This document shows positions 9,791-37,189 of a DNA stretch of 37,222 nucleotides, in pieces. The stretch is from Terriglobia bacterium (GTDB taxonomy: Bacteria; Acidobacteriota; Terriglobia; 20CM-2-55-15). The notes under the pieces are model-generated. The model was given only the letters and a program-made list of their open reading frames with translations, searched no databases and was not told where the DNA came from. The translations under genes were made by a program, and so were the position numbers. The first letter of the stretch is position 1. The number at the start of each line of letters is the position of its first letter. The stretch is taken from contig DASXLG010000007.1 of the NCBI GenBank assembly GCA_036496425.1, forward strand, positions 1 through 37,222. The letters run 5' to 3'.

Positions 9791-9798
9791 CAAACTAA

Positions 9799-13741: not shown

Positions 13742-14448
13742 GAGCCGTAATCACCTTTGCGGTTCAATCGGAGACGGGAAATTGGAGAGTGGCTCCCCGC
13801 TATCGCGAAAATATTCACATCATAAGGACCGGAATTGGGATGCGCGGGCCGCAGGATGAACTGCAGCAGGCATTGTCCGGTCCAATCGATTTTTGTATCG
13901 CTTCAGGTCTGGCGGGCAGCTTGAAACTTCAATACCCGGTAGGTTCGGTCCTGGTGGCAAGAGGAATTAAATCTGAGGGCAGTCCCACGATCGTGCCATG
14001 CGATGGAGGTCTTGTGGATGCCGCTGTGCGCAGTGGCGCGACGGCCGTCAATTTTTTTTACACGTCTTCGGCGATTGCGAACGCTGAAGCCGAACGCACG
14101 AAGCTGGCAGGCGTGGCGGACGCTGTGGATATGGAAAGTTACCATGTCCTGTCGGCGGCCCGGCATGCCGGTGTGGCGGCTGTCGCGGTACGCGTCGTTT
14201 CCGACTCTCCGGATCGAAAACTTCCACTGGATTTTTCACGGACCGTCACGCGTGACGGTCAAATCGCCTGGCGTCGAATGATCGGCGAAATCATAAGACA
14301 CCCCGGCCGGCTGCCTGCTTTTGTACGATTCGGTATTGACAGTTCGGAAGCAATCCGTAACCTATCGACGTTCCTTGATCGATACATAAATTTCCTGATG
14401 ATGAACAAAATCAGCGTCCCTGCCCGCGTGGAACACTCCACCAGATGA
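13738..14448 (+). CDS. hpnG: Hopanoid nucleosidase/phosphorylase HpnG
   Basis: A 236-residue nucleoside phosphorylase-fold protein. HpnG removes adenine from adenosylhopane, giving (phospho)ribosylhopane. Visible family features are the glycine-rich FCIASGLAGSLK, the GSVLVARG strand, and the DMESYHVLSAARHAGV signature that carries the nucleoside-binding Met-Glu and continues into VAAVAVRVVSD. The N-terminus is compact. The C-terminal ~60 residues after FSRTVTRDG are helical and may include the membrane-facing part. ATG overlaps the hpnA stop (ATGA), and the stop overlaps the next gene in the same way, showing coupling on both sides. Confidence 0.93.
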   Translation: MRAVITFAVQSETGNWRVAPRYRENIHIIRTGIGMRGPQDELQQALSGPIDFCIASGLAGSLKLQYPVGSVLVARGIKSEGSPTIVPCDGGLVDAAVRSGATAVNFFYTSSAIANAEAERTKLAGVADAVDMESYHVLSAARHAGVAAVAVRVVSDSPDRKLPLDFSRTVTRDGQIAWRRMIGEIIRHPGRLPAFVRFGIDSSEAIRNLSTFLDRYINFLMMNKISVPARVEHSTR

Positions 14449-15545: not shown

Positions 15546-16600
15546 ACCCACAGCGCAACGGGCACATGATGGCAGCCGTCCTGCATGGCCCAGAAGATCT
15601 TAAAGTTCAGCAGGTCGAGATTCCCAAAGTCGGCGCCGGGGACCTGCTGGTCCAGGTGAAGGTGGCTTTAACCTGCGGAACCGACTTCAAAGTCTGGAAG
15701 CAGGGATACCACCCCCGGATGATTGTGCCGCCCGCGATCTTCGGCCACGAATTGGCCGGTGTCGTGGCGGAGGCCGGCGAAGCCGTCCGTTACAAGTACC
15801 CGTTGGGAATGCGCGTGGTCGCCGGAAATTCCGCGCCCTGCAATGAGTGCTTTTTCTGCAAGAAGGACAAGGCCAATCTCTGTGAAGATCTGGTTTTCAA
15901 CAATGGCGCTTATGCGGAATACGCCCTGATCCCCGCGCGCATCGTCCGCGAAAACCTGGTCGAGATACCGGCGCACCTGGGTTTCATTGCCGCAGCCCTG
16001 GTTGAGCCGCTCGCTTGCGTGCTCCGCGCCGTGGAGGAAACCGGAGTTCAGCCGGGCGATACCACCGCCGTGATCGGTTGCGGTCCGATCGGATTGCAGT
16101 TCATCCGCGTGCTTAGCAGCCGCGGCGCACGCGTCATTGCGATCGGCAAGCGCGGCAGCCAGCTCCGGGTTGCGGAACGGCTGGGCGCAGCGGCCACCTG
16201 CGATGTCTCGCAGACCGCGGACGTTGTGGCTGCAGTGCGTGACCTGACTCACGGCCGCTACGGCGCCGATTCCGTCATCGAAGCGGTCGGTTCGCCGCTG
16301 ACCTGGCAATGGGCCGTACAGCTGGCGCGATGCGGCGGTACGGTCAACCTGTTCGGCGGATGTCCGCGCGGTACCAGGGTCGAATTTGAATCTTCGGCCA
16401 TCCACTATTCCGAGATCACGATCAAATCCAGCTTCCACCATACGCCGCGCTTCATCCGCGAAGCTCTCGATCTGATCGCGCGCGGGGATGTCGACGCAAA
16501 GGATTTCGTGACGGGCGAGGTTCCTCTAACCGAACTGCCGCAGGTATTCGAACACATGAAAAACCGCAACGGGCAGCTCAAGGTTGCCGTCATGCCCTGA
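15542..16600 (+). CDS. Zinc-dependent medium-chain alcohol dehydrogenase, hopanoid operon (second copy)
   Basis: A 352-residue MDR dehydrogenase, clearly related to but diverged from its upstream neighbour. Catalytic-zinc ligands are C45 (TCGTD) and H69-E70 (GHE); structural-zinc cysteines are C100, C103, C106 and C114. The Rossmann motif is VIGCGPIGLQFI, followed by VIAIGKR, whose basic residue after the second strand hints at NADP preference. The start is GTG, overlapping the previous stop by four bases (GTGA); the hpnC ATG follows one base after this stop. Both zinc sites are intact in both copies, so neither looks like a decaying duplicate. They may form a heteromer or act in sequence on the hopanoid side chain, which is inference. 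Confidence 0.88.
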   Translation: MNPQRNGHMMAAVLHGPEDLKVQQVEIPKVGAGDLLVQVKVALTCGTDFKVWKQGYHPRMIVPPAIFGHELAGVVAEAGEAVRYKYPLGMRVVAGNSAPCNECFFCKKDKANLCEDLVFNNGAYAEYALIPARIVRENLVEIPAHLGFIAAALVEPLACVLRAVEETGVQPGDTTAVIGCGPIGLQFIRVLSSRGARVIAIGKRGSQLRVAERLGAAATCDVSQTADVVAAVRDLTHGRYGADSVIEAVGSPLTWQWAVQLARCGGTVNLFGGCPRGTRVEFESSAIHYSEITIKSSFHHTPRFIREALDLIARGDVDAKDFVTGEVPLTELPQVFEHMKNRNGQLKVAVMP

Positions 16601-16601
16601 C

Positions 16602-17552
16602 ATGCAACTACCACCGGATTTTGAAATCGCCCGCAACCTGCCCCCTCCCGGCTCATCGCTCGAACGCTCACAGGAATACACCCGCCGGCTCGCGAAAAAT
16701 CACTATGAAAATTTCACCGTCGCCAGCGGACTGCTGCCGCGCCAGCTCCGGCAGCACTTCTACAACGTCTACGCTTATTGCCGCTGGTCCGACGATCTGG
16801 CCGATGAAGTTTCAAATCCGCAGCTGGCGCTGGAATTGCTGGACTGGTGGGATAGCGAGCTGCGGCAATGTTATGCGGGTTCGCCTGGGCACGCGGTTTT
16901 CGTGGCGCTTCGTCACACGATCCAGTCGTTCGATATCCCGATGCAGCCGTTCTCGCATCTGCTCGCGGCCTTTCGGCAGGATCAACGCGTGCACCGGTAT
17001 CCCACCTGGGAAGCCGTCATGGGTTATTGCCGCTACTCGGCGAATCCGGTCGGCCGGCTCGTCCTTTACCTGGGCGGCTATCGCGATCAGGACCGCCAGA
17101 CCCTGTCCGATTTCACCTGCACAGCTCTGCAGCTGGCGAATTTCTGGCAGGACGTCTCGCGTGATCTGGATAAGGACCGGATCTACATTCCGCTCGACGT
17201 CCTGGCAAAGTACGGCTGGAGTGAGGCTGATTTATTCAAGCGACAGTTCGACGATCGCTACGCGGCTCTCATGCATGAACTGGTTGCCCGTACCCGCGCT
17301 CTGTTCGAACAAGGGCTTCCTCTGATCGAAAAGGTCGAACCGGCGCTTCGCGTGGATATCGAATTATTCAGCCGCGGAGGACTCTCCGTGCTTGACGCGA
17401 TCGAAGCGATTGGCTACAACACTCTGCAAAACCGGCCGTCGCTGAGCGGCATGGCCAAGCTTCGGTTATTGAGTCAAACCTATGCCAAACGATACAGAAT
17501 TGGCAGCCTCATACGAGCACTGTCGCAACCTCGCATGGGCCGCAGCGCGTAA
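16602..17552 (+). CDS. hpnC: Hydroxysqualene synthase HpnC
   Basis: A 316-residue trans-isoprenyl synthase-fold protein. HpnC converts presqualene diphosphate to hydroxysqualene in the three-enzyme bacterial squalene route. The family N-terminus is visible (HYENFTVASGLLPRQLRQHF), followed by the first aspartate-rich motif in CRWSDDLADE and the second in NFWQDVSRDLDKDRIYIP. The ATG at 16602 lies one base after the preceding stop; an in-frame start at 16584 would fall inside the previous gene. The last ~23 codons overlap the start of hpnD by 71 bases in another frame, an unusually long overlap. Confidence 0.94.
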   Translation: MQLPPDFEIARNLPPPGSSLERSQEYTRRLAKNHYENFTVASGLLPRQLRQHFYNVYAYCRWSDDLADEVSNPQLALELLDWWDSELRQCYAGSPGHAVFVALRHTIQSFDIPMQPFSHLLAAFRQDQRVHRYPTWEAVMGYCRYSANPVGRLVLYLGGYRDQDRQTLSDFTCTALQLANFWQDVSRDLDKDRIYIPLDVLAKYGWSEADLFKRQFDDRYAALMHELVARTRALFEQGLPLIEKVEPALRVDIELFSRGGLSVLDAIEAIGYNTLQNRPSLSGMAKLRLLSQTYAKRYRIGSLIRALSQPRMGRSA

Positions 17553-18372
17553 CTTCTATTACGGCTTCGCCCTGCTTCCTCCAGCCAAGCGTGACGCGTT
17601 GTGCGCTCTTTATTCATTCATGCGGCGGGCGGACGACATCTCCGATTCCGAAGGCAACACCCAGGAAAAAGGCCAGGGCCTGAAAGCCTGGCGATACGCG
17701 CTCGACGAAGCCCTGCGCGGCAATTACAACGGCAGCAAACTGCTGCCGGCCTTTCATCACACCGTCGAGCGCTACAGGATTCCCGCGGACTATTTTCACG
17801 ATCTGATGTCGGGCGCGGAAATGGACCTCTCGGTCCGCAGCTACGAGACATTCGAGGATCTCAGCCGTTACTGCTACTGCGTCGCCGGTACCGTCGGTTT
17901 GTGCTGCATCCACGTTTTTGAATTTCAGGATCCGAAGGCACTTCAACTTGCTCCCAAACTGGGCATTGCCTTTCAGCTGACGAATATCCTGCGCGATGTT
18001 GCCGAAGACTACACGATGGGCCGCATCTATCTTCCGCAGGAAGATCTGCGCCGGTTTGCCTGCAGCGACCGGGATTTGTCGGACAAGGTGGCGAGCCCTG
18101 CGTTCGTCCAGTTGATGCGCTTTCAGGCGGACCGCGCCTGGCGTCTGTACGACGAGGGCTCCGAGTTGCTGGGTCTCGTCAACAGCGACAGCCGCGCCGC
18201 CCTCTGGACGCTGATGCGGATCTACAGCGGCATCCTCGCGAAGATCGAAGCGATCCATTATGACGTGCTCGCGAAGCCGCATCCGGGGCTGTCCCGTTTC
18301 GAGAAAGCCTGGATCATGCTCCGCGCCGGCGCGGGTCTCTGGAAACCCGGACTGTGCCCGAGACAAACGTAG
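17482..18372 (+). CDS. hpnD: Presqualene diphosphate synthase HpnD
   Basis: A 296-residue squalene/phytoene synthase-family enzyme. HpnD condenses two farnesyl diphosphates to presqualene diphosphate. Motifs are SFMRRADDISD (first aspartate-rich region), YCYCVAGTVGLCCIHVF, and NILRDVAEDYTMGRIYLP (second aspartate-rich region). The ATG at 17482 is needed to include the conserved YEHCRNLAWAAARNFYYGF helix, so the 71-base overlap with hpnC is real. Its end overlaps the hpnE GTG start by 19 bases. Gene order hpnC-hpnD-hpnE is the usual one. Confidence 0.95.
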   Translation: MPNDTELAASYEHCRNLAWAAARNFYYGFALLPPAKRDALCALYSFMRRADDISDSEGNTQEKGQGLKAWRYALDEALRGNYNGSKLLPAFHHTVERYRIPADYFHDLMSGAEMDLSVRSYETFEDLSRYCYCVAGTVGLCCIHVFEFQDPKALQLAPKLGIAFQLTNILRDVAEDYTMGRIYLPQEDLRRFACSDRDLSDKVASPAFVQLMRFQADRAWRLYDEGSELLGLVNSDSRAALWTLMRIYSGILAKIEAIHYDVLAKPHPGLSRFEKAWIMLRAGAGLWKPGLCPRQT

Positions 18373-24267: not shown

Positions 24268-25683
24268 TCAGCTCCTGGCGCGCGGCAGCGTCGCTCTCGC
24301 CATGGCCGCTTCCGGCTCCTTCATTCTCATCCGGTTCATAGCGATCTTATTGATATGGCATTCCGAACACGTGTTCTCGAAGGTATGGCAGGTAAAGCAA
24401 CCCCGCAGGTCAAGTTTCGCCGGTGTGGCGTGTGAACCGCCCTTCCACAACGCCAGCGGATTATGGCTGCGCGGCAGTTCGTTGTGACAATCACTGCAGT
24501 ATGAGGCCCTGTGGCACACCGTGCAGGTGGTCCGGTCCATAGCGGCGTACTGGCCGTGCAGGTCGTCTTTCCAGCGCGACGTATGGCTCGCCGGCTTCAT
24601 CGCCTGATGACAGGAATCGCATTGCACGGCTCCCATGGCTGAACTCTGCACGTGCTGATGGCACACAAAGCACGTCGCCCCTGGAGCTGCAGCCTCCTCT
24701 TCATGATGCAGCCGGAACGCTTCGGTGTGGAAGTCCGGCTTCACATTCCTCGTATGGCTGTTCGGCACGGCGGCATTGAGCGAAGCAGTGTCCTGATGGC
24801 ACGTCTTGCAGTTGGACATCCTGGACTCGCTCGGCACCCGGGCGGTGTCGTGGCACTGCACGCAGTCGATCATTTTAGGCAGGGTCAGATTCGCAATACT
24901 GGTGCTGTTGGGGATCGCGTAATGACACGTCGTGCAATTCAGGTTGAACTGGTCTTTGACCCTGAAGTGAGTGACGTGGGCGAAATTGATATCCACATAT
25001 TTGCCTGTCGTGGTCTGATGCGGGCCGGCGAAGCGCCTCGCTTCGGTAAAGCTTGGATTCTCGATTTCTTCGGGCGTATGGCAACCGCGGCAACCTTCGG
25101 CCGAAAGCGCGGACGTAAGCTGTGGTTTGATGCCGGGCTTGGAGTGGCATGCCGCGCACTGGTCGTGGTTGGGGAACATCGCGAACTTACCCTCGGCATC
25201 GAATTTATGACAAAACGTGCAGTCGGCGCGGAAGCCGGTTTTAGTGTCGATTCTCGCCTGGGAATCCACATGCTGGTTGTGCGAAAACTCGAACAGAATC
25301 GTACGTGAACCTTTATAACGAGGGAACGGGAGAAGATCGTCCGATCCCGTGGGCGGAAACGCGGTATGACACTGGGCACAGATCTTCGGGTTCAGATCCT
25401 TGTCGAAGGCCTCGCTGTGGCAGGTCATGCATTGATCGTGTCCCGGCCGCTGCAGCACCAGCGATCCCTCTTTTTCCGCGACGTGACAGAAACTGCATTC
25501 CAGGTTCCCGTCAAATTGCTTCTTGTGGAAGGCGTGAATGAAGAAGCCGGCGCCATCGGCCGGCGCGGCCAGAGCAGGAGAAGGAGCAGCGGGGTTTTGC
25601 GCACCGCGCACAAACACCGCACCCGCCGCAAGCGGCAGCATAAGAAGGAAGCATGACAGGATTCGGATTATTCTGATTTTCAT
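24268..25683 (-). CDS. Periplasmic 15-haem c-type cytochrome
   Basis: A 471-residue exported protein with 15 CxxCH haem-binding motifs: CSFCH, CMTCH, CAQCH, CTFCH, CAACH, CRGCH, CTTCH, CVQCH, CKTCH, CFVCH, CDSCH, CTVCH, CSDCH, CFTCH and CSECH. Extra histidines between motifs (such as FSHNQHVD, NFAHVTHFR, HLHGQ-like segments) can serve as distal ligands, giving low-spin bis-histidine haems and a molecular wire. The signal peptide is MKIRIIRILSCFLLMLPLAAG; there is no lipobox. Haem density (about one per 31 residues) and position next to an outer-membrane barrel resemble MtrA/OmaB-type electron conduits, though I cannot assign orthology. The ATG is one base after the barrel gene stop. The tail (LPRARS) is short and basic. 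Confidence 0.93.
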   Translation of the reverse strand: MKIRIIRILSCFLLMLPLAAGAVFVRGAQNPAAPSPALAAPADGAGFFIHAFHKKQFDGNLECSFCHVAEKEGSLVLQRPGHDQCMTCHSEAFDKDLNPKICAQCHTAFPPTGSDDLLPFPRYKGSRTILFEFSHNQHVDSQARIDTKTGFRADCTFCHKFDAEGKFAMFPNHDQCAACHSKPGIKPQLTSALSAEGCRGCHTPEEIENPSFTEARRFAGPHQTTTGKYVDINFAHVTHFRVKDQFNLNCTTCHYAIPNSTSIANLTLPKMIDCVQCHDTARVPSESRMSNCKTCHQDTASLNAAVPNSHTRNVKPDFHTEAFRLHHEEEAAAPGATCFVCHQHVQSSAMGAVQCDSCHQAMKPASHTSRWKDDLHGQYAAMDRTTCTVCHRASYCSDCHNELPRSHNPLALWKGGSHATPAKLDLRGCFTCHTFENTCSECHINKIAMNRMRMKEPEAAMARATLPRARS

Positions 25684-25684
25684 G

Positions 25685-27319
25685 TCAGTACTTCCAGTTG
25701 ATTCCGACGCGGAAGACTTGTGAATTCTTCACATCGGGCGTGAAAAGGAAAAAGTCATTGTCGAGGCTGTAATCGAAATAGGCGCGCGTGCGGCGGTCGA
25801 GCCGGACCCATGCGCTTCCGAGAAGGCCGCTCTGATGGAGATTATCCTCATAGAAGAACGTATCTTGCATGCTGATCCGCCGGTAATATAAGCCGCCGCT
25901 CAAACTGAAGCGCCCTTCACCGAAGCTTCTGCTGACATCGGCGCTGAGATCTTTCACAGCCGTTTCACCTGTCCCGGTAAGAGCATCGAGCGTCGTGGTT
26001 CCGAGTGGGCTCAGCCGGTCGGAGCTACGCTGATGATATTCGAAAGACATCGAGATCTTGTTCCAGGGAAAGTATTGTCCATTGAAGCGATAGTCGCGGA
26101 AGGATGTCTCGTAAGGAGTCTGATCGTTATTGTCGTCGAGCGCGCGAACCACGATGACGCCGCCGGCCCGCAGATTCGAGAAAAACTGGTGGTGGGCTTC
26201 GACATTGAACTGTGTATAGCGGTTGATGGGTCCCAGATAAACCCGGTAGAGCGGGTTCTTTGCGGCCAGATCACGCGCGTCGCTCGTGTAGTCATAGGAA
26301 TAATCGTTGTCCGTCAGCTTCTGGAAGAAGCCGCCTCGAATCGAGTCGCGGCCGCTGCGGGAGCTGTACAGAAATGACAGATCGAAATCCACCGGCGAGC
26401 CGCCGTAGGCGCGCAGGTACGAGCTGAGGAGCCAGCGGTCGCTGAGCCGTTTACGAAGTATGACCTTGTTCGAACCTTTGATGTACCAGAGCGTCTCGAA
26501 CTCGAGCGACGTATTGGCATCGAGTTTGAGGTTGAGATTGGCGCCGCCGATGCGGCGTTGCGCAGGATCGGAAAAAAACGAGAAACGGCGGCCGCCATAG
26601 AGCGTGAAGGTGAATTTCCTGTGATCGATCGAACCCAAGGCGCCGTCGAAGGATGCCAGCTCCGCTCCGTATACGTTGAGGCGGCCGAACTGGAAGGCGG
26701 TACCGGCGAAAACTCCATCACTCGGCTTGCCGTTGATCCCGACATTGGCATCGAGCAGCTCGTACAGATGGTTTCCCGTAAACGTTTCAATGACGTTTTC
26801 GGCAGGCGAACCCAGCTGCACCGCATTGAGGTCCTGCCGGTACCGCATGGCAACGTGGGTTCGTACCCGGTCCGAGCCGTAGCCGGTTGTTCCGAAATCG
26901 ATGAACTCCTCCATCCGGTCGGCGCCCGGCTGAAAGGCGGTCGGAGATGGAATTCCCGCCGGGTTGAACGTGCCGGTCAGCGGCGCATCGATTACACCCG
27001 CCGTGGTGGGGTTACCCGTAAAATCCGTCTGGTAGCGCTCGTAGTTGGTATTGCTCTCGAAATGGAAACGTTCGAGAAACTCATCGACGCCGCTCCTCTT
27101 TTGTGACGCGCGAGGCTGCGCAAAGGCCGGATCGGGAACGGCTTGAGGGATCGCCGTAGAGATGAGCTGGTCCCATTCGGCTTTCATTTGCCCGGAGGAG
27201 ACGGAACCCTCCGTGGGAGCCTGGGCCGCATAGACCGCGGGCGTCCAGACCAGTGGCACCGCTAACAGGAACCGCAGGACGAACAACAGCGTCTTTTGAC
27301 TTGGACCTCGAAACGGCAT
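25685..27319 (-). CDS. Outer-membrane beta-barrel of the cytochrome cluster
   Basis: A 544-residue protein with an N-terminal signal peptide (QKTLLFVLRFLLAVPLVW, cleavage near VYAAQA), a linker with a plug-like segment, then many alternating amphipathic strands rich in Tyr, Arg and Asp: FTFTLYGGRRFSFFSD, TSLEFETLWYIKGSNKVI, GRFSLSGGLYYRRISMQD, RAYFDYSLDNDFFLF. The end, VFRVGINWKY, has the terminal aromatic of outer-membrane barrels. It reads like an MtrB/OmbB-type porin surrounding a multihaem cytochrome, but I cannot show homology by eye. I start at the ATG at 27319, four bases after the TPR stop; the upstream in-frame start (27382) lies in that gene. No CxxCH motif is present. Confidence 0.85.
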   Translation of the reverse strand: MPFRGPSQKTLLFVLRFLLAVPLVWTPAVYAAQAPTEGSVSSGQMKAEWDQLISTAIPQAVPDPAFAQPRASQKRSGVDEFLERFHFESNTNYERYQTDFTGNPTTAGVIDAPLTGTFNPAGIPSPTAFQPGADRMEEFIDFGTTGYGSDRVRTHVAMRYRQDLNAVQLGSPAENVIETFTGNHLYELLDANVGINGKPSDGVFAGTAFQFGRLNVYGAELASFDGALGSIDHRKFTFTLYGGRRFSFFSDPAQRRIGGANLNLKLDANTSLEFETLWYIKGSNKVILRKRLSDRWLLSSYLRAYGGSPVDFDLSFLYSSRSGRDSIRGGFFQKLTDNDYSYDYTSDARDLAAKNPLYRVYLGPINRYTQFNVEAHHQFFSNLRAGGVIVVRALDDNNDQTPYETSFRDYRFNGQYFPWNKISMSFEYHQRSSDRLSPLGTTTLDALTGTGETAVKDLSADVSRSFGEGRFSLSGGLYYRRISMQDTFFYEDNLHQSGLLGSAWVRLDRRTRAYFDYSLDNDFFLFTPDVKNSQVFRVGINWKY

Positions 27320-27323
27320 GGAT

Positions 27324-28202
27324 TTACTTTTTTTGCTCGGTCGCCCGCGGTTTATCCCGGAATCCGGTACTGAGTTTAGCAAGCCGGCTCTTTGCGAGTT
27401 GGATCCGCCAGGCGTATGTGTCGGAGTGCCACTGCGTGGCGGCCAGGTAAAGATTCAGCTCCGAAACCTGGTCTGCCGTATCTCCGAGTTGACTGTAAAT
27501 CTCCGAGAGAGCCCAGTGCGCATGGGCATTGTTCGCCGTATCTCCCGTCAATGCCGTGTAAGTTGGAGTGACGGGCGACAGCGCCAGTTCCGCTTGATAG
27601 GCAGCGATGGCGCTTTGCAGCAGAGCCGTCTCCGACTGGCTGTCCGCAGCTTCCGCAGCTTCCTTCTCATAGGCCTCACCAATGAATTCATTAACGCCAA
27701 GGCGCAACGGATCGATCTTAAGAACTTCCTGGTACAGGCCGATCGCCACGGCAGGTTGAGTTTCCGCCAACAGGTGCGCCAACCGCAGCCGTGGAGTGAA
27801 CATGCAAGGCGCAGGAGTCAGATTCGCATTCGGCACGACCAACGCCGCACTGGTAATAATCTGGCACGTACCGTTGTTCAAACTGTTCATGGAGATCGCT
27901 GCCTGATAATCGGTAATGGCGTCGGTGTTATCCACAAGGTCGTCCTGATAGTGGATGCCGCGCTGTGTGTATTCCCAAGGCGTAGACGGAGTCGTGATTT
28001 TCAAAAGGTTCCAGTCGACCCGGCCCTCGAAATAAAACGGATTGCGATTCAGATAGTTCGGATTGTCGGCCTGATAGGTAACACCCGGGACATACGGCCC
28101 ATTGCCTGTCGTAAGATTGGCTGTCGGCGCGTTCTGCGCCATCAGCTGAACCGCCAGGGCGGACACTGCGAACAAAACCGAAACCCAAGGTGCAACTTTC
28201 AT
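27324..28202 (-). CDS. TPR-like exported protein of the cytochrome cluster
   Basis: A 292-residue protein with a signal peptide (MKVAPWVSVLFAVSALAVQL, cleavage near LMAQNA). The first ~90 residues are Asn/Tyr/Pro-rich (GVTYQADNPNYLNRNPFYF). The rest forms tetratricopeptide-like helices: FTPRLRLAHLLAETQPAVAI, GLYQEVLKIDPLRLGV, AIAAYQAELALSP and AHWALSEIYSQLGDTADQVSE. It has no CxxCH motif. Its ATG overlaps the stop of the pentahaem cytochrome by four bases and the barrel start follows by four, so it is coupled on both sides. It is probably a scaffold or assembly factor for the complex. The function itself is not known to me. Confidence 0.82.
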   Translation of the reverse strand: MKVAPWVSVLFAVSALAVQLMAQNAPTANLTTGNGPYVPGVTYQADNPNYLNRNPFYFEGRVDWNLLKITTPSTPWEYTQRGIHYQDDLVDNTDAITDYQAAISMNSLNNGTCQIITSAALVVPNANLTPAPCMFTPRLRLAHLLAETQPAVAIGLYQEVLKIDPLRLGVNEFIGEAYEKEAAEAADSQSETALLQSAIAAYQAELALSPVTPTYTALTGDTANNAHAHWALSEIYSQLGDTADQVSELNLYLAATQWHSDTYAWRIQLAKSRLAKLSTGFRDKPRATEQKK

Positions 28203-30361
28203 TGCTGACCTCCGATTGTGGCCGTCGTGTCCGACGACGCCAGATTCATGTTGGTTTTCAGTAACGTGTCCATGGTCTGTTCGGTCAACAATTGTTTATC
28301 CCCCCCAGGCCCGTTCGGACCCGTGGTTTTGGCAAGATATCTCATGAAAACGGGGGGGAAGTGCTCGTCGTTAATCTGTGCGTGAATGTGAAGGGGCGCC
28401 TTCAGCGTCACTCCCAGCTCGTTCAACTCCTCTTGCGTCGGCATGACGATCTGGTAACGGAATTGGCGCGGAACGAGCGGCTGCAGCGAACGATAGTTGT
28501 CTACGGTATTGGCGGTCGCCGCATTGAAAGTCTCCTCATAATGTGGAGTGGTCGGCACGATCGGGTTGCCGTTGGCGTCATTTCTCCCGAGCGGCGTCCC
28601 TGGAGCATAAATGACCGTCAATTCGTTACGGAACAGAACCAGGCCGTTTTCCGCGCCCGCATATACCCGATCATCCGGGCCATTATCCGGGCCGAGTTCA
28701 AAGACCAGGTTGTTCGAACCGTTGGTAGCGGCGCCGGTGACATAACTCCCGGCCGGAACCTGCTGGCCGCCATCCACCACCACATGGAGGTGCTCGTTGT
28801 CTTCGTCGTCGAGATTGCCATCGGGTTTCGCTTCGCCCGTATCGGGATGCGGTTTATCGATCCGATATCCCGATTGGTAAAGGACAAAGCCATTATCATC
28901 CGTCACCGACATCTGAATGTACGCCGTGCGTTCCTGTGAGAAGCCCGACGGGAAACGGTGGCCGGAAAGACCGACGGCATCCAGGCGAACGGTGAACACC
29001 TGGCCAAGGACAGCCTGCGCGTCGGATTGTCCGGCATCGATGCGCGCGGCGTTTTCGAGAAGGGTTTGACGCCTGTCGGCTAAGGCCTTGGGAATACCGT
29101 ATCCGTCCACACCGGTCACGTAAGGATCGGGGTAATCCGGACCGAGCCGGGTCTGCAGGTCGTGGGCGCTGAGGAGTGGAACATCGGTGCCCGCGAAATA
29201 ATGCGTGACCACCTGGCGTTGGGGCAGCGGGTAGTTTCCATCGGTCGAGACGCCCGGGACGGCAGCATAGTTTTGCGGATAGACGGCAGGGGTTGCGCTT
29301 GTAATCAAAAGGGGATGGCCGAGGTCCGCATTGTTAACGGTATAGGTGGAATTGCCGCCAAAAGGAAACAAGGACATATGGCAGTCCTGGCATTGCGTGA
29401 CTTTGCCAAACGGGTTGTTGATGCTATTGTAGGCGCCCGTTTGCCATTCGGTGCTGAGGTTCTCGAGGCGCAGATACGGCACGCTTGCCGCATGGACGTT
29501 GACTTCATTGTTCGCCAGATCGCCCGGACCGCCCCCCGGGAGCCGGACATCGTGGCAGGTATTGCAGAACGCACCGCTCTTCAGATAGGAGATCTTGTTC
29601 GGATCGTTACTGACAGTGTGGAAATTGCCTTTCGGGGCTACCGGGAACAAGAAAGGGCCAACCTTCTCTTCCGACTGATTAAGGATCAGGCTGGTGTTGG
29701 CGAAACCGTCGCCTTTGAAACTGCGGGTGAGATCCGGACCGCCTTCGTTGTGGCAGAAGTCGCAGCTGATGCCTGCTGCGCCGGGCGAAGGCAAGGAATT
29801 GGCCGGCGGAAGTCCGCCGATTGTATCCGGGAGAACCTGGTGGCCCGATGAATCGACGAGATGGTAATCGCGCAAGGGCCGCAGAAGATCAGGACGGAAC
29901 GCGTTGCCCGTTTGCTGCAATTCAGGAACTTCGCGCAAAGCCGGATTGTCCGCTCGCCTTTCGAAATTGGCGTTGTGGCATGTGTAGCAAAACCCCGCCC
30001 GCATCTGCTGCAGGTTGGCAATCGGGGACGACGTAAACATGTTCGTGTTGAATGGCTGGCCATTCGGCAGCGTCTTGTTGCTATCGGCATAGACAGGCCG
30101 CAATACCCCGCCCGTGATGAGGTTTCCCGCCGTTTCAAGAGCGTTGAACAGTGGGCTTACATTTCTATAGCCCGACTTGACCGAACTCCGAAGCTCGTCG
30201 TACTGCCGCTGATGGCACGGCAGACAGTTCTCCGCAGGCTGGATGTCCTGGGACTTGAAAGGGACAGTGGTCGGGTTTCCGGTAGGCGTCTGCGCGAGCA
30301 ACCCTCCGACGGCAAAGAACTGGATGGCAAGAATTCCAATTAACGTTCTCACCAGTGACAT
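28199..30361 (-). CDS. Large exported pentahaem c-type cytochrome
   Basis: With the ATG at 30361 this is a 720-residue protein. A signal peptide covers about residues 5-24 (RTLIGILAIQFFAVGGLLAQ). Five CxxCH motifs are widely spaced: C46 (CLPCH), C125 (CYTCH), C200 (CDFCH), C266 (CNTCH), C324 (CQDCH). Residues ~460 onward hold no haems but a beta-rich region: FTVRLDAVGLSGHRFPSGFS, ERTAYIQMSVTDDNGFVLYQ and acidic Asp/Glu-rich loops (GNLDDEDNEH). Wide spacing and a large haem-free domain suggest a terminal or surface-exposed cytochrome. The start is uncertain: GGGAGG stands only two bases before the ATG, so GTG at 30352 is a good alternative, and TTG at 30376 a poorer one. First gene of the minus-strand operon. 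Confidence 0.9.
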   Translation of the reverse strand: MSLVRTLIGILAIQFFAVGGLLAQTPTGNPTTVPFKSQDIQPAENCLPCHQRQYDELRSSVKSGYRNVSPLFNALETAGNLITGGVLRPVYADSNKTLPNGQPFNTNMFTSSPIANLQQMRAGFCYTCHNANFERRADNPALREVPELQQTGNAFRPDLLRPLRDYHLVDSSGHQVLPDTIGGLPPANSLPSPGAAGISCDFCHNEGGPDLTRSFKGDGFANTSLILNQSEEKVGPFLFPVAPKGNFHTVSNDPNKISYLKSGAFCNTCHDVRLPGGGPGDLANNEVNVHAASVPYLRLENLSTEWQTGAYNSINNPFGKVTQCQDCHMSLFPFGGNSTYTVNNADLGHPLLITSATPAVYPQNYAAVPGVSTDGNYPLPQRQVVTHYFAGTDVPLLSAHDLQTRLGPDYPDPYVTGVDGYGIPKALADRRQTLLENAARIDAGQSDAQAVLGQVFTVRLDAVGLSGHRFPSGFSQERTAYIQMSVTDDNGFVLYQSGYRIDKPHPDTGEAKPDGNLDDEDNEHLHVVVDGGQQVPAGSYVTGAATNGSNNLVFELGPDNGPDDRVYAGAENGLVLFRNELTVIYAPGTPLGRNDANGNPIVPTTPHYEETFNAATANTVDNYRSLQPLVPRQFRYQIVMPTQEELNELGVTLKAPLHIHAQINDEHFPPVFMRYLAKTTGPNGPGGDKQLLTEQTMDTLLKTNMNLASSDTTATIGGQQ

Positions 30362-30501
30362 TACCTCCCAAAGCAACAGTTACCAGGCAGCGTCATGCTT
30401 TTCTGCATCTGGGTCGGCGAATTCTACCAGATAGGCATCAACACTTTGAACAGTGAAACTGAGCTTGACAGCATCAGCAGCAATGTCGAAGACTGTGGCG
30501 C

Positions 30502-31197
30502 ATGCGCCTACGAGTGTTGTCGATTCTTGGACTGCTGACGGCGATCCCAGCATATGCGCAAGATACGCAGTTTCAGCAAGACCCCGTTGAACACCTGACC
30601 TCCACCATCCTGACCATTCTGATTGCCACCGGAATAGCGTTGATCCTCTACAGCCTGATCCGCTACCGCGGGCGCGTCGCGGGTCCCCTCTCCCTGGGTC
30701 TTCTGATCCTTGGCCTTGGAGTGTTCCCTGTAGTGACGGGCATGGTCGGGACCGTACTGGTGTTTGAAAGGGCGGAACATGTCGAGTTTTGCGCCTCATG
30801 CCATTTGACAATGCAGCCCTATGTCGATGACCTGCGGAATCCCCAGAGCACGAGCCTCGCGGCCCTCCACTATAAGAATCAATACATATCGACGAATCAG
30901 TGCTATCAGTGTCATACGTCTTACGGAATGCACGGGACAGTCGAAGCAAAAATGTCCGGAATGATTGACACATTCAAGTACTACACGCGAACCTACAAGT
31001 TGCCTGTGAAAATGCGTGAGCCGTATAAGAATGATGATTGTTTGAAATGCCACGCAACATCGCAGAAGTGGCTCGCGCTTCACGGCGACTTCAAGGAGGT
31101 TCTTTTTAAAGGCGACATGAAGTGCATGGAGTGTCACGGAGACGAACATCCTGCACATACATTTGAAAGGCAGCAGGCCAAGCTTGAAAAAAAGTAA
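30502..31197 (+). CDS. NapC/NirT-like membrane-anchored tetrahaem cytochrome
   Basis: A 231-residue protein with a signal-like N-terminus (MRLRVLSILGLLTAIPAYAQ), two hydrophobic segments (residues 33-54 and 62-88), and four haem motifs: C97 (CASCH), C134 (CYQCH), C180 (CLKCH), C208 (CMECH). The EFCASCHLTMQPY surroundings and the single-anchor tetrahaem architecture match NapC/NirT/NrfH/CymA-type quinol dehydrogenases, which move electrons from menaquinol or ubiquinol into the periplasm; the extra N-terminal segment makes it longer than usual at that end. It is divergent from the pentahaem gene, so it could feed the conduit encoded there. It overlaps the next gene by 14 bases. ATG is internally consistent but without clear Shine-Dalgarno site. 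Confidence 0.92.
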   Translation: MRLRVLSILGLLTAIPAYAQDTQFQQDPVEHLTSTILTILIATGIALILYSLIRYRGRVAGPLSLGLLILGLGVFPVVTGMVGTVLVFERAEHVEFCASCHLTMQPYVDDLRNPQSTSLAALHYKNQYISTNQCYQCHTSYGMHGTVEAKMSGMIDTFKYYTRTYKLPVKMREPYKNDDCLKCHATSQKWLALHGDFKEVLFKGDMKCMECHGDEHPAHTFERQQAKLEKK

Positions 31198-31744
31198 TTT
31201 ACTCAAAAGGACAGCGGAAGGGTCCACCGGCCTCCTGATTTTCGTTCAATTGCTGGTGTTGGCGGCTCTGTGTCTGGGTCTGCAGTTCATCGTGCGCACA
31301 ACGGGCGGCAGTCTGTTTCTCGCGGCGTCTCTGGCGCCGGTGCTGAGCACGGTGGCGATAGTCCTCGGCGGCGGGATTCTGCTGTACAGGTTTACGCGGA
31401 GCCACAGCCTGTTCAATACTGAAGAGTTTGAACCGGGGGAAATCGTTTTTCGGATGGGCGACAGTTCAGAATGCGCGTATTTTATCAAGTCCGGCGAGGT
31501 CGAGATTGTTCGTGAAGAGGGCCGCGGCGAAGTCGTGCTTGCAACCTTGTCCGAGGGTGAATATTTTGGTGAAATGGCCCTCTTATCGGATGCGCCGCGC
31601 AACGCCACCGTCCGGGCTCGTACGCGAACCGTCGCCGAAGTGATTGGAAAACAGAATTTTCTTGCAATGGTAGGCGCCGTCCGCGGCGCGCGCGATGAAG
31701 TGATGAAGACCGTGGAAACTCGAAAGGGCCGCGGCGCTTCATGA
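31184..31744 (+). CDS. Membrane protein with cyclic nucleotide-binding domain
   Basis: A ~186-residue protein with two predicted membrane segments (TGLLIFVQLLVLAALCLGLQ and APVLSTVAIVLGGGILLY) followed by a cNMP-binding domain from about residue 80: FEPGEIVFRMGDSS, AYFIKSGEVEIVRE, and the phosphate-binding cassette GEYFGEMALLSDAPRNATVRA with its Glu and Arg. No helix-turn-helix or kinase is attached, so it is a membrane-bound sensor rather than a CRP-type regulator. I chose the TTG at 31184 with GCAGG upstream; a TTG at 31163 would add seven residues. It overlaps the tetrahaem gene by 14 bases, and a cytochrome c follows, suggesting cyclic-nucleotide control of the quinol oxidation module. 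This is inference. Confidence 0.88.
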   Translation: MKKSNLLKRTAEGSTGLLIFVQLLVLAALCLGLQFIVRTTGGSLFLAASLAPVLSTVAIVLGGGILLYRFTRSHSLFNTEEFEPGEIVFRMGDSSECAYFIKSGEVEIVREEGRGEVVLATLSEGEYFGEMALLSDAPRNATVRARTRTVAEVIGKQNFLAMVGAVRGARDEVMKTVETRKGRGAS

Positions 31745-31788
31745 GAATTCAGAAAGACCGTTTAACAGCATCTTCCGAAAGGAGTTTC

Positions 31789-32124
31789 ATGAGAACACTG
31801 GGTTTTGCATTTTTGCTTTCGCTCCTCGTAGTCATCGTTATCTCCGCTCCTGTCTTCGCGCAGGACGCGGCCGCGGGAAAAGCGGTTTATGCGAAAAAAT
31901 GCCAAGCGTGCCACGCCGCCGACGGTAACGGCAACCCGGCGATGGCGACGGCGCTGAAGGTCGAATTCAAGCCGCTTTCGTCCGACGAAGTCCAGAAGAT
32001 GAGTGATGCCGATTTGAAAAAAGTCGTGATGAACGGCATGGGGAAAATGAAACCCGTGACCGGGCTCATGCCTGCGGATGTCGACAGTATTGTCGCTTAT
32101 CTCCGCACGTTGAAGAAAAAATAG
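31789..32124 (+). CDS. Small class I cytochrome c
   Basis: A 111-residue exported cytochrome c. The signal peptide is MRTLGFAFLLSLLVVIVISA (cleavage near VFAQDA); the haem site is CQACH at about residues 40-44 with the typical GKAVYAKKCQACHAADGNGN context; the likely distal ligand is Met in MGKMKPVTG, and the C-terminal helix is VDSIVAYLRTLKKK. A good Shine-Dalgarno site (AAAGGAG, 31778-31784) fixes the ATG at 31789; an in-frame ATG at 31741 lacks one. It is last in the plus-strand electron-transfer group and is probably a mobile electron carrier in the periplasm. Confidence 0.94.
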   Translation: MRTLGFAFLLSLLVVIVISAPVFAQDAAAGKAVYAKKCQACHAADGNGNPAMATALKVEFKPLSSDEVQKMSDADLKKVVMNGMGKMKPVTGLMPADVDSIVAYLRTLKKK

Positions 32125-32250: not shown

Positions 32251-34308
32251 ATGGCCGGCAAAATCGATCAGGTTTGCATCAATACGATTCGTACATTGTC
32301 GATGGACGCCGTACAACAGGCGAATTCGGGCCATCCCGGAACGGCTATGGCGATGGCGCCCGTCGTCTATTCGCTATGGAACGAGTTCCTCCGATTTGAC
32401 CCCGGCGATCCGATCTGGCCCAACCGGGACAGATTTGTTCTTTCGATTGGCCACGCATCGATGTTGTTGTATTCGATCCTGCACCTGACAGGGGTAAAAG
32501 CCGTCAATCCCGAGTATGAAAGCCTGGGACAATTGTCCGTTCCCCTCGACGACATCAAGCGATTTCGCCAGCTCGACAGCAAGTGCCCCGGGCATCCGGA
32601 GTACCGCTGGACCTCGGGAGTCGAGACAACCGCCGGACCACTCGGCCAGGGCGTGGCGACGAGCGCCGGTATGGCCATCGCCGGACGTTGGATGGCCACC
32701 TACTTCAATCGCCCCGGGTTCGAAATGATCGACTACAACGTTTATGCCCTGTGTGGCGATGGCTGCATGATGGAAGGCGTCAGCCAGGAGGCGGCATCGC
32801 TGGCGGGCCACCTCAAACTCTCAAACCTCTGCTGGATATACGACAACAACAAGATCACCATCGAAGGCCATACCGATTGGGCGTTCAGTGACGATGTCGC
32901 CACAAGGTTTATCAGCTATGGATGGAATGTTCTTCGCGTCGGCGACGCCAATGATCTGGAAATGCTGGCTCGCGCCTTCAATACGTTCCACGCGACGAAG
33001 GACCGGCCCACCCTCATTATCGTCGACAGTCATATTGCTTACGGCGCGCCCAATAAACAGGACACCAGCGCGGCGCACGGTGAACCCCTGGGCGAAGAAG
33101 AGATCCGGCTCACCAAGCGTAATTACGGCTGGCCTGAAGATGCAAAGTTTCTGGTTCCGGACGGCGTCTACGATCACTTTCAGGAAAGGATCGGTCGGCG
33201 CGGGCGCGAGTTGCGTAACGCCTGGATGGCAAAATTCGACGAGTACAAAAAAGAATATCCTCAGCTTGCGGAACACCTTTTCAAGATGCAACACAGGCAA
33301 CTGCCGGAAGGTTGGGACAAGGACCTCCCGGTCTTTCCCGCGGATGCCAAGGGTCTTGCGGGCCGTGATGCATCCAACAAAGTGCAAAATGCGCTCGCAA
33401 AGAACCTGCCGTGGCTGATCGGAGGCTCGGCAGATCTCACGCCATCCACCAAAACACGTTTGAATTTCGACGGCGCCGGCGATTTTACTTCTTCAGGTTC
33501 GGCCGGCCGTAACCTTCATTTCGGAATCCGTGAGCACGCGATGGCATCCATCCTGAACGGTTTGTCGCTTTCGAAAGTACGTCCTTTCGGCTCCGGGTTT
33601 CTCATCTTCAGTGATTACGCGCGGCCGGCGATCCGCCTGAGCGCCTTAATGGAGCTTCCGGTCATCCATATTTTCACGCATGATTCCATCGGAGTCGGAG
33701 AGGATGGCCCGACGCATCAGCCTGTGGAACAACTCGCATCGCTGAGAGCCATTCCCGGCCTCATCACGTTGCGGCCGGCGGATGCCAACGAAGTCGTTGA
33801 AGCGTGGCGGCTGATTACCAGGCTGCGGCATAAGCCCGTCGCTCTCATTCTGTCGAGACAGGCCTTGCCGACAATGGATCGCACCCGCTTTGCTGCCGCA
33901 TCGGGCCTTGCCAGAGGCGCCTACGTGCTTGCTGACGCCGACGATGGAAAGCCGGTGGCCATCATGATGGCCACCGGCAGCGAAGTCTCTTTATGTGTGG
34001 CGGCATATGAAAAACTGAGGGCAGAGGGCATCAAGACTCGAGTGGTCAGTATGCCTTCGTGGGAACTGTTTGACGAACAGGATCAGAAATATCAGGACAG
34101 CGTCCTGCCGCCCGGAATCAAAGCGCGTGTGGCTGTCGAGCAGGCCAGCACCTTCGGATGGACGAGGTTCGTAGGCGCTTCAGGAACGATCATCGGAATG
34201 AATACATTTGGCGCTTCTGCGCCGCTGAAAGAATTACAGCAGAAGTTTGGCTTCACACCTGAGAAAGTTGTCGGCGTGGTACGGGAACAGCTTACGAAAG
34301 AGAGTTGA
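32251..34308 (+). CDS. tkt: Transketolase
   Basis: A 685-residue ThDP-dependent transketolase of the pentose phosphate pathway. Signatures: the N-terminal SGHPGTAMAMAP, ThDP-Mg motif CGDGCMMEG with NNKITIEG further on, the loop GAPNKQDTSAAHGEPLG carrying catalytic histidine, and the pyrimidine-domain FGIREHAM with its essential glutamate. VGEDGPTHQPVEQL and the C-terminal domain (MMATGSEVSLCVAAYEKLRA, MNTFGASAPLKELQQKFG) are complete. ATG at 32251 has CGGAGG at 32235-32240, ten bases upstream. The Tal-Pgi gene starts four bases after this stop, so both are co-transcribed. Confidence 0.96.
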   Translation: MAGKIDQVCINTIRTLSMDAVQQANSGHPGTAMAMAPVVYSLWNEFLRFDPGDPIWPNRDRFVLSIGHASMLLYSILHLTGVKAVNPEYESLGQLSVPLDDIKRFRQLDSKCPGHPEYRWTSGVETTAGPLGQGVATSAGMAIAGRWMATYFNRPGFEMIDYNVYALCGDGCMMEGVSQEAASLAGHLKLSNLCWIYDNNKITIEGHTDWAFSDDVATRFISYGWNVLRVGDANDLEMLARAFNTFHATKDRPTLIIVDSHIAYGAPNKQDTSAAHGEPLGEEEIRLTKRNYGWPEDAKFLVPDGVYDHFQERIGRRGRELRNAWMAKFDEYKKEYPQLAEHLFKMQHRQLPEGWDKDLPVFPADAKGLAGRDASNKVQNALAKNLPWLIGGSADLTPSTKTRLNFDGAGDFTSSGSAGRNLHFGIREHAMASILNGLSLSKVRPFGSGFLIFSDYARPAIRLSALMELPVIHIFTHDSIGVGEDGPTHQPVEQLASLRAIPGLITLRPADANEVVEAWRLITRLRHKPVALILSRQALPTMDRTRFAAASGLARGAYVLADADDGKPVAIMMATGSEVSLCVAAYEKLRAEGIKTRVVSMPSWELFDEQDQKYQDSVLPPGIKARVAVEQASTFGWTRFVGASGTIIGMNTFGASAPLKELQQKFGFTPEKVVGVVREQLTKES

Positions 34309-34312
34309 GAAC

Positions 34313-37189
34313 ATGGCAAAATCGGAAATCTCCGTAGTCAATTCGCTCAAGGAATTGAAGAAGTATGGCCAGTCAATCTGGTTCGATTATATTCGGCGCA
34401 GTCTGATCACAAGCGGTGAGCTGCAGCGCATGATCGATGAAGACGGGTTGGCAGGCGTCACTTCGAATCCGGCCATTTTTGAAAAAGCCATCACCGGAAG
34501 CACGGACTACACCGAAGCGCTCCGCGAACTCGAAAAACGTCCCGACATGGATGCGATGGCGCTGTACGAGGCAATTGCGATTCGCGACATCCAGGACGCC
34601 ACCGATGTCTTGCGGACGGTCTATCAGAGCAGCAACGCCCGGGACGGATATGTCAGTCTCGAAGTGTCGCCGTATCTTGCCCACGACACTCAAGGCACGA
34701 TCGAAGAGGCGCGCCGGCTGTGGAAAACGGTCGGCCGGGAAAACCTGATGGTTAAAGTGCCGGCGACGGATGAGGGTATCCCGGCGATCGAGCAGCTCAT
34801 CAGCGAAGGAATCAATGTCAACGTGACACTCCTGTTTGCCCAGGAGATGTATGAGCGCGTGGCGTGGGCTTACGTCTCAGGAATCGAGAAATTTGTGGCT
34901 CGGGGCGGCAACCCCGGCAAAATCGCAAGCGTCGCCAGCTTTTTCATCAGCCGCATCGACTCCGCCGTGGATGCCATCGCGACAGCCCGGCTCAAGACCG
35001 CGGAATCGGGTGTCGAGCGCGCCCTGCTGCGTAGCATCATGGGAAAAGTGGCGATTGCCAACGCCAAGCTCACCTACCAGCGCTACAAGGAAATTTTTTC
35101 CGGCCCGCGCTGGCAGAAGCTCGCTGCCGCAGGCGCACAGACCCAACGCGTTTTGTGGGCGAGCACGGGAACGAAGAATCCGAATTATTCCGATGTTCTG
35201 TATGTGGAAGAACTGGTCGGCGCCGACACCGTAAACACCGTTCCGCCGTCGACCTTCGATGCGTTTCGTGACCACGGCCGCCCGCGCGCCAGCCTGACCG
35301 AAGATATCGAAGCGGCTCACGACACGATGGAGACACTGGAGAAGCTCGGAATCTCCATGAAACAGGTAACCGGCGATCTCGTCGTCCAGGCGGTCAAACT
35401 GTTCGTCGAACCTTTCGACAAACTGCTCAGCACGGTCGACCGCAAATGCAAATTCGTGCCGGCCGGCGAGTTGGCCCCGCAAACCTATAATGTCTCGGCC
35501 GACGCCGCCAAAGCGATCGAAACATCGCTGGAGGAATGGAAACTCAGCGGCAAGGTGCGCCGCATGTGGGCACGCGACGCCTCGGTCTGGACCCGGTCGG
35601 ACGAAGGAAAATGGCTCGGCTGGCTTGGCATCACAGAGGATCAGATCGCACATGCCGATCATCTCCGTGATCTTTCGAAGGAAATCCAGGCCGGGCAATT
35701 CACTTCCATATTGTTGCTGGGTATGGGTGGCTCCAGCCTGTGCCCGGAAGTTCTCAAAATGACCTTCGGAAAAATCGACGGTTTTCCGGAGTTGCACGTC
35801 CTGGATTCGACCGATCCGGCACAAATCCGCGCCATTGAAAAGAAAGTCGATCTTTCGAAAACCCTGTTCATCGTTTCGAGCAAGTCGGGATCGACGCTCG
35901 AGCCGAACATCTTCAAGCAGTACTTTTTCGAACGGGCACAGCAAGTGCTCGGCCGTCATCCCGGAGATCGATTCATCGCGGTGACCGATCCCGGATCGAA
36001 GATGCAGGAAGTCGCGGAGGGCGATTCGTTCCGGCACGTGTTTTTCGGTGTGCCCAGCATCGGTGGCCGCTATTCCGCATTGTCGGATTTCGGCATGGTG
36101 CCTGCTGCCGCAGCCGGCATCGATGCAGCTCGATTTCTGGATCTCGCGGATGAGATGGCGATCGCGTGCTCATCCTGCCCTCCGATCGAAAAAAATCCGG
36201 GCGTTGTGCTCGGCACGGTTCTGGGCGCGCTTGCCAAACAAGGCCGCGACAAGGTCACTTTCATTGCATCCCCCGGAATCTCCGACCTGGGCGCGTGGCT
36301 GGAACAACTGCTGGCGGAATCGACAGGCAAGGACGGCAAAGGATTGATTCCAGTTGATCGCGAGCCGATCGGACCGCCTGAAGTTTATGGCAACGACCGG
36401 GTGTTTGTTTACATACGGCTGTCCTCGGCGCCGGATGCGGAACAGGATCGGGCAGTTGACGTTCTGTCAGCAGCCGGACATCCTCTGGTGCGAATCCAGG
36501 TTTCGGATCCCTACCGGCTCGGGCAGGAATTCTTCCGTTGGGAAATTGCGACCGCGGTTGCAGGCTCGATCCTGGGTATCAACGCGTTCAACCAGCCGGA
36601 CGTCGAGGCCAGTAAGATCGCGACCAAAAAACTGACCTCCGAATTTGAAAAAACCGGATCGCTGCCTGCCGAGCAACCCTTCCTTGAAGAGGACGGCATC
36701 AAGCTGTTCGCAGACGAAGCAAATGCTTCATCGTTGCAGTCGGCCGCCGGATCGGATAAATCCCTGACCGCCTGTCTTCGCGCTCACCTGAATACACTCA
36801 AAGCCGGGGATTATCTGGCATTGCTGGCTTATGTCGAGATGAACAAAACCCATGAAGACCAGCTTCAAACGATGCGCAAAGCCGTTCGCGACACTCGGCA
36901 TGTCGCGACGTGTCTGGGTTTTGGCCCGCGTTTTCTGCACTCGACAGGACAGGCGTACAAAGGCGGCCCCAACACCGGCGTTTTTCTTCAGATCACTGCG
37001 GATGACGCGGCGGATCTGCCGGTTCCCGGACAAAAATATACCTTCGGAGTGGTCAAATCGGCGCAGGCACGAGGCGATTTCCAGGTGTTGGCGGACAGGA
37101 AACGCCGGGCGCTTCGAGTCCATCTGGGCGCGGACGTTGCGGCCGGCCTGGCGAAACTGGCGGGTGCGATCCAGAAAGCTCTGGCGTAA
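34313..37189 (+). CDS. tal-pgi: Bifunctional transaldolase / glucose-6-phosphate isomerase
   Basis: A 958-residue fusion. Residues 1-~370 are transaldolase: GVTSNPAIFEKAI, Schiff-base lysine K148 in LMVKVPATDEG, and INVNVTLLFAQEMYERV. Residues ~400-958 are glucose-6-phosphate isomerase: WLGWLGITEDQ, ILLLGMGGSSLCPEVLKMTF, the sugar-phosphate loop SSKSGSTLEPN near 522-532, and VPSIGGRYSALSDFGMVPA near 580. Such Tal-Pgi fusions are known in several bacterial groups. They join the non-oxidative pentose phosphate branch to glycolysis in one chain. I start at the ATG at 34313, four bases after the tkt stop. The last ~150 residues (SLTACLRAHLNTLKAGDYL to the end) belong to the extended isomerase module. 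Confidence 0.95.
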   Translation: MAKSEISVVNSLKELKKYGQSIWFDYIRRSLITSGELQRMIDEDGLAGVTSNPAIFEKAITGSTDYTEALRELEKRPDMDAMALYEAIAIRDIQDATDVLRTVYQSSNARDGYVSLEVSPYLAHDTQGTIEEARRLWKTVGRENLMVKVPATDEGIPAIEQLISEGINVNVTLLFAQEMYERVAWAYVSGIEKFVARGGNPGKIASVASFFISRIDSAVDAIATARLKTAESGVERALLRSIMGKVAIANAKLTYQRYKEIFSGPRWQKLAAAGAQTQRVLWASTGTKNPNYSDVLYVEELVGADTVNTVPPSTFDAFRDHGRPRASLTEDIEAAHDTMETLEKLGISMKQVTGDLVVQAVKLFVEPFDKLLSTVDRKCKFVPAGELAPQTYNVSADAAKAIETSLEEWKLSGKVRRMWARDASVWTRSDEGKWLGWLGITEDQIAHADHLRDLSKEIQAGQFTSILLLGMGGSSLCPEVLKMTFGKIDGFPELHVLDSTDPAQIRAIEKKVDLSKTLFIVSSKSGSTLEPNIFKQYFFERAQQVLGRHPGDRFIAVTDPGSKMQEVAEGDSFRHVFFGVPSIGGRYSALSDFGMVPAAAAGIDAARFLDLADEMAIACSSCPPIEKNPGVVLGTVLGALAKQGRDKVTFIASPGISDLGAWLEQLLAESTGKDGKGLIPVDREPIGPPEVYGNDRVFVYIRLSSAPDAEQDRAVDVLSAAGHPLVRIQVSDPYRLGQEFFRWEIATAVAGSILGINAFNQPDVEASKIATKKLTSEFEKTGSLPAEQPFLEEDGIKLFADEANASSLQSAAGSDKSLTACLRAHLNTLKAGDYLALLAYVEMNKTHEDQLQTMRKAVRDTRHVATCLGFGPRFLHSTGQAYKGGPNTGVFLQITADDAADLPVPGQKYTFGVVKSAQARGDFQVLADRKRRALRVHLGADVAAGLAKLAGAIQKALA

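Follow-up and report, generated by a model that had tools for sequence, protein, structure and literature searches.

The window analysed here is a stretch of 37,222 nt on contig C7 of an assembly of 6.16 Mb. Within it, positions 24268-32124 hold seven open reading frames (ORFs) in two divergent operons that meet at 30362-30501 (Table 1), an arrangement proposed in an initial annotation of the locus and borne out by our ORF check. The minus-strand operon encodes, in this order, a pentahaem cytochrome, a TPR-like protein, a beta-barrel-like protein and a 15-haem cytochrome, and the plus-strand operon a NapC-like tetrahaem protein, a membrane protein with a cyclic-nucleotide-binding domain (hereafter the cNMP protein) and a single-haem cytochrome. 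The four genes of the minus-strand operon are packed as tightly as initially described, with a 4-base overlap between the pentahaem and TPR-like genes, a 4-base gap before the barrel gene (if its start is the ATG at 27319) and a 1-base gap before the 15-haem gene; for the pentahaem gene, the probable start codon is the ATG at 30361. The cNMP and small cytochrome genes also overlap by 4 bases, and the overlap of the NapC and cNMP ORFs amounts to 35 bases with the first TTG start or 14 with the next in-frame TTG. In and around the intergenic region, no convincing CRP-type site was found; the best one has three mismatches and lies inside the NapC gene.

Table 1 Features of the locus, with positions in the window and the evidence for each assignment.
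Feature	Position	Strand	Evidence
15-haem cytochrome c, signal peptide	24268..25683	-	15 CXXCH; local profile matches
Beta-barrel-like protein, 544 aa, signal peptide, cysteine-free	25685..27319	-	Low-confidence model and Foldseek
TPR-like protein, exported	27324..28202	-	Sub-threshold TPR matches; syntenic homologues
Pentahaem cytochrome, C-terminal beta-rich domain	28199..30361	-	5 CXXCH; NF040886 matches in family
Divergent intergenic region	30362..30501	.	Between both operons
NapC/NirT-type tetrahaem quinol dehydrogenase (predicted), signal peptide, two membrane helices	30502..31197	+	PF03264, 4 CXXCH, hydropathy
Two-helix membrane protein with cyclic-nucleotide-binding domain	31163..31744	+	PF00027 4.7e-24
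Single-haem cytochrome c, exported	31741..32124	+	PF13442 1.9e-13, 1 CXXCH

The 25 haem sites originally claimed were recovered as CXXCH motifs (15 + 5 + 4 + 1, none in the other proteins). Shuffled proteins of the same composition contained on average 0.14, 0.003, 0.009 and 0.0002 motifs for the 15-haem, pentahaem, NapC-like and small cytochrome proteins, respectively, so the observed counts are not due to chance, and the motifs were retained in every full-length homologue aligned. Elsewhere in the window, an apparent hopanoid cluster (8834-18372, plus strand) encodes IspH/LytB, a squalene-hopene cyclase, an HpnH-like radical SAM protein (DUF3463), an epimerase, a nucleoside phosphorylase, alcohol dehydrogenases and two squalene/phytoene synthases.

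Components and conservation of the minus-strand operon

In an alignment of full-length homologues, the 15-haem protein showed all 15 motifs together with about 16 further conserved histidines, enough for bis-His ligation of each haem. It gave local matches to Cytochrome_C7, MtrC/F domain and MtrA/DmsE-type profiles, the match to the MtrA/DmsE decahaem family TIGR03508 being local and reaching 25.1 bits vs a cut-off of 192.2, and it is likely a trans-barrel or periplasmic haem wire. The initial annotation had regarded the 15-haem length as unlike known systems, a view that needs softening because, according to PMC6148476, Geobacter conduits have periplasmic cytochromes with anything from 5 to 15 haems. 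The same text describes pentahaem partners, among them ExtKL, which is encoded with the barrel ExtI in the extHIJKL conduit; on this account neither the haem number nor the pentahaem partner is novel.

The barrel assignment stood as far as the strand-rich model and its structural matches go, and found no backing from families: the protein matched none in Pfam (E up to 0.1) or NCBIfam, nor the MtrB/PioB family PF11854. Its AlphaFold model has about 20-22 strands at low confidence (pLDDT 51), and the best Foldseek matches were all outer-membrane barrels, which we take as a lead only, the model being weak. No similarity was seen by hhalign between the barrel profile and two Acidobacteriota MtrB-like barrels, a test of limited reach because those two also have no Pfam match. 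The barrel profile matched nothing useful among PDB sequences. Relatives were not recovered when contigs were searched with the barrel sequence alone, but they were with the pentahaem alignment as the query. Subject to this low-confidence call, a porin-like barrel gene is clustered here with multihaem cytochrome genes.

The proposed TPR gene was retained as an exported TPR-like ORF; the TPR call itself is weak, since all its Pfam matches fell below the curated cut-off. Its syntenic homologues (48-66% identity) share two invariant cysteines (C113 and C133), and the protein is a probable assembly or docking factor. The ExtKL family NF040886 was matched by 13 of 15 members of the pentahaem family (best E 1.4e-12), all below the curated cut-off, and by the locus protein alone with E 0.005 and 15.4 bits vs a cut-off of 250, which places it, by sequence, as a distant relative of Geobacter ExtKL and not as a family member. 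The pentahaem profile also matched MccSep and T. tepidum c552; c552 was found as well by a fold search with the AlphaFold model (pLDDT 46), as a lead only. The locus pentahaem protein has a signal peptide and no lipobox, and some distant relatives resemble lipoproteins by eye. Only four non-motif histidines are conserved across the whole family in a distant alignment, so that one haem could be open. Stand-alone pentahaem relatives occur in Phycisphaerae/Planctomycetota and Marinagarivorans (L019-L026), with no barrel, TPR-like or 15-haem homologue in their surroundings, and two adjacent pieces in G011 (contig C26, L126 6777-7217) match the pentahaem protein in its C-terminal part and may be what is left of a decayed second copy.

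The four-gene set is syntenic in other Acidobacteriota at 37-71% identity, with named relatives of the locus in an Acidobacteriia bacterium, a Bryobacteraceae bacterium, Candidatus Versatilivorator and an Acidobacteriaceae bacterium; these names are our basis for placing the locus in Acidobacteriota. Genes in the other genomes were called with a simple script, not a trained gene finder. Among 61 relatives, strong barrel, pentahaem and 15-haem matches coincided in six genomes, with identical gene order wherever it could be read; since a single genus accounts for four of them, the six cannot be counted as independent events. The same four genes were present in L013, L014, L017 and L018 (the 15-haem gene of L014 and the pentahaem gene of L017 being cut by the sequence end), all seven genes recurred in G011, which belongs to another family, and barrel, NapC and cNMP genes were also found in the distant lineage G193, where the pentahaem and TPR-like genes lie on another contig than the barrel. 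Co-occurrence of the four genes in other genomes, on which the initial annotation had staked its reading, was thus found, and the four genes are a real unit as judged from gene order and joint presence. The distribution of the barrel is patchy, via transfer or loss: it occurred in three genomes of an even sample of 396 Acidobacteriota, and in none of five other searched genomes of the genus to which the locus belongs, some of which are incomplete assemblies. In L013 (3808-9882, minus strand), genes divergent from the operon encode a NuoE/F-like protein, a cytochrome with 10 haems and an Fe-S protein of 721 aa that carries cNMP domains. Downstream of the operon in L009-L012 and L017 (genomes of genus g10 and of the sponge-associated Versatilivorator) lie genes for an 8-haem c552-like protein (seven haems in the truncated call of L017) and a TPR protein.

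The NapC-like protein and its cyclic-nucleotide-binding partner

The NapC-like protein matched the NapC/NirT family PF03264 (2.5e-8, 34.3 bits vs a cut-off of 24.1), in agreement with its four haem sites and two helices, and fell below the cut-offs of the CymA/NapC equivalogs (TIGR02161, 24.0 vs 310.6 bits; NF007906, 16.6 vs 349 bits). The cNMP protein reached 84.6 bits vs a cut-off of 27.5 for PF00027, and its closest relatives of solved structure are cyclic-nucleotide-binding proteins. Its phosphate-binding cassette is canonical (FGEMALLSDAPRNA) and kept in the partner proteins of other loci; the protein is predicted to be a binder of cyclic AMP or cyclic GMP. The NapC homologues of 21 loci fell into two groups, a split supported at 100/100. 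A cNMP protein is encoded next in all eight members of the locus-type group with a readable downstream neighbour, a ninth lying at a contig end, while in the other group, several members of which adjoin MtrA/MtrB-like genes, a protein of 63-93 aa comes next in 9 of 12 and something else in 3 of 12. These loci were partly picked from alignments seeded with NapC/cNMP pairs, and the pairing is therefore clearest in G430 and G209, which were found afterwards. Comparison of the membrane part of the cNMP protein with the small partner of the other clade by hhalign gave 69-71%, which is suggestive only of homology.

The surroundings of the pair vary. It adjoins the barrel at this locus, in G011 and in G193, and an OmcE-like nanowire cluster in G051; in G001, of the same genus as the locus and with the barrel absent, it is followed by a HAMP-linked adenylate/guanylate cyclase (L118 6921-9959). 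A type of NDH-2 fused to a cNMP domain adjoins the pair in G051 and G193 and lies beside a truncated NapC in G365, and homologues of the small single-haem cytochrome occur near the module in G011, G051, L013 and L018. The genome of the locus itself holds nine class III cyclase matches and, on another contig, an NDH-2/cNMP fusion. One further neighbour (L148) had a weak BLAST match to the cyclase; it was identified by Pfam as an FHA protein and not counted. As these neighbourhoods show, the NapC/cNMP pair is a module separate from the conduit and of wider occurrence, which the initial annotation had overlooked. The unusual part of the locus is its entry module, a NapC paired with a cNMP protein.

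In the G051 cluster (L119 724-8268), the OmcE-like protein carries four haems (PDB 7tfs 1.8e-11, 9yuq 3.2e-15) and is encoded with NHL, AMIN and 11-haem proteins, divergent from the NapC-cNMP-cytochrome c genes; we regard it as a candidate nanowire cluster in Acidobacteriota. No match to the OmcE-like protein was found in the genome of the locus. Downstream of the NapC operon (32251-37189, plus strand), our window encodes a transketolase and then a transaldolase-PGI fusion, and the order in G051 is NapC, cNMP protein, cytochrome c, NDH-2/cNMP fusion, transketolase, a small gene and a transaldolase/PGI-like gene. The position of the module may therefore be old.

From the pairing, the neighbours, the canonical cassette and the cyclases of the genome together we infer that the quinol step may be tuned by a cyclic nucleotide. 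We tentatively propose that NapC and the cNMP protein could form a cyclic-nucleotide-gated quinol dehydrogenase, in which cyclic AMP or cyclic GMP from the cyclases of the cell would directly set the electron flow into outer-membrane conduits or cytochrome nanowires, a plausible possibility to which we give well below even credence. It is a concrete, testable candidate for a second messenger acting directly on extracellular electron transfer and, if true, would mean that extracellular respiration has a post-translational switch, by which the cell might turn its electron wire on and off via a cyclic nucleotide. In a literature search of incomplete coverage, no paper was found that joined cyclic nucleotide-binding, multiheme and quinol.

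A putative electron conduit and its alternatives

We consider it likely that the locus encodes an electron conduit of the porin-cytochrome kind, equipped with an entry enzyme of its own that is probably regulated. The haem sites, family calls, synteny and cNMP pairing are read from the sequence. For localisation, barrel threading, outward direction, acceptor and gating, we infer the following scheme. The NapC-like tetrahaem protein would oxidise inner-membrane quinol, and electrons would cross the periplasm via the small cytochrome c, the 15-haem protein or both. The latter would thread the barrel as a bis-His haem wire, and the ExtKL-like pentahaem protein would serve as its redox partner at the exit or terminus. 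Assembly or docking of the complex may be the task of the TPR-like protein, and the cNMP protein would be a quinol dehydrogenase subunit sensing cytoplasmic cyclic nucleotide. This reading is supported by the 25 conserved haem sites and the additional conserved histidines of the 15-haem protein, by the synteny and co-occurrence of the four genes with all seven together in G011, by the barrel-like model and the signal peptides, and by the kinship of the pentahaem protein with ExtKL, itself part of a Geobacter conduit. It also gains from the NapC homologues of the phylum that adjoin MtrA/MtrB-like genes and from the OmcE-like cluster beside the pair in G051. It is weakened by the low pLDDT of the barrel, with no model placing the 15-haem protein inside it, by the dissimilarity of this barrel to the two MtrB-like ones, by the missing lipobox of the pentahaem protein, and because the conduit and the NapC/cNMP pair are also found apart.

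The main rival is a respiratory reductase of oxyanions such as selenite or tellurite, in which the pentahaem protein would be catalytic, the barrel would mainly pass substrate or product and few electrons would be exported to solids. The relation of the pentahaem family to ExtKL and MccSep points this way, as does the impaired selenite and tellurite reduction described for a Geobacter ExtI barrel deletion in PMC5877670 and PMC6148476. The possibly open haem would also fit; however, it is deduced from a distant alignment, and the conserved 15-haem cytochrome beside the barrel would be left unexplained. We find this reading unlikely. The separate occurrence of the two gene sets (conduit genes lacking NapC/cNMP in the g10 genomes, L013 and L018; NapC/cNMP lacking the conduit in G001, G051, G430, G209 and G056) indicates that each can work with other partners. 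It would suit two adjacent but independent systems, with the conduit operon on one side and, on the other, a NapC/cNMP/cytochrome module serving another respiratory chain, as would the module of G051 beside transketolase and transaldolase/PGI genes, if its position is old and the conduit a later arrival. Against such independence, the module is linked to the barrel in G011 and G193, two more lineages whose arrangements differ, and in G051 it is linked to another cytochrome cluster; we regard independence as distinctly improbable. Least probable to us is a conduit working inwards, in which an extracellular donor, for example Fe(II), would feed the quinone pool by way of the barrel and the 15-haem protein. 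Such conduits are used in both directions (PMC6295460), and the NDH-2/cNMP fusion that accompanies the NapC module in several genomes fits either, but no feature of the locus fixes the direction of flow.

Comparison with known systems

The outward conduit that we favour is known by principle and mostly new by family, its families being largely unnamed before in electron conduits. With it, the known electron conduits of Acidobacteriota gain a distinct set of proteins. In this major soil phylum, no CymA-type quinol dehydrogenase turned up in a 2018 survey, whose CymA homologues were confined to Proteobacteria (PMC6295460). Like Geobacter extHIJKL, the locus encodes a barrel together with a pentahaem protein, the two pentahaem proteins being distant members of one family; it differs in that no rhodanese ExtH was seen at this locus and in the added 15-haem cytochrome, TPR-like protein and NapC/cNMP module. 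With Geobacter OmbB-OmaB-OmcB, ExtABCD and ExtEFG, compared by description, it shares a clustered porin, periplasmic and other multihaem partners and similar haem counts, whereas no cNMP or TPR gene is described for them in the available part of the source. Shewanella MtrCAB likewise combines a barrel, a multihaem wire on the periplasmic side, an outer redox partner and a NapC-type quinol dehydrogenase, but its wire has 10 haems vs 15 here, its partner is the decahaem MtrC vs a pentahaem protein, and the barrel described here has no PF11854 match and is unrelated by profile to the two MtrB-like barrels of the phylum. The Acidobacteriota NapC proteins beside MtrA/MtrB-like genes (L124, L125, L152-L158) are similar to ours, and a barrel and a single-haem cytochrome often accompany them, yet they form the separate clade described above, and their partner, where found, is the 63-93 aa protein without a cNMP domain. 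With CymA and other NapC/NirT quinol dehydrogenases, the locus protein has in common a tetrahaem NapC/NirT domain on membrane helices, and it is set apart from them by a signal peptide plus two helices and by its dedicated cNMP partner.
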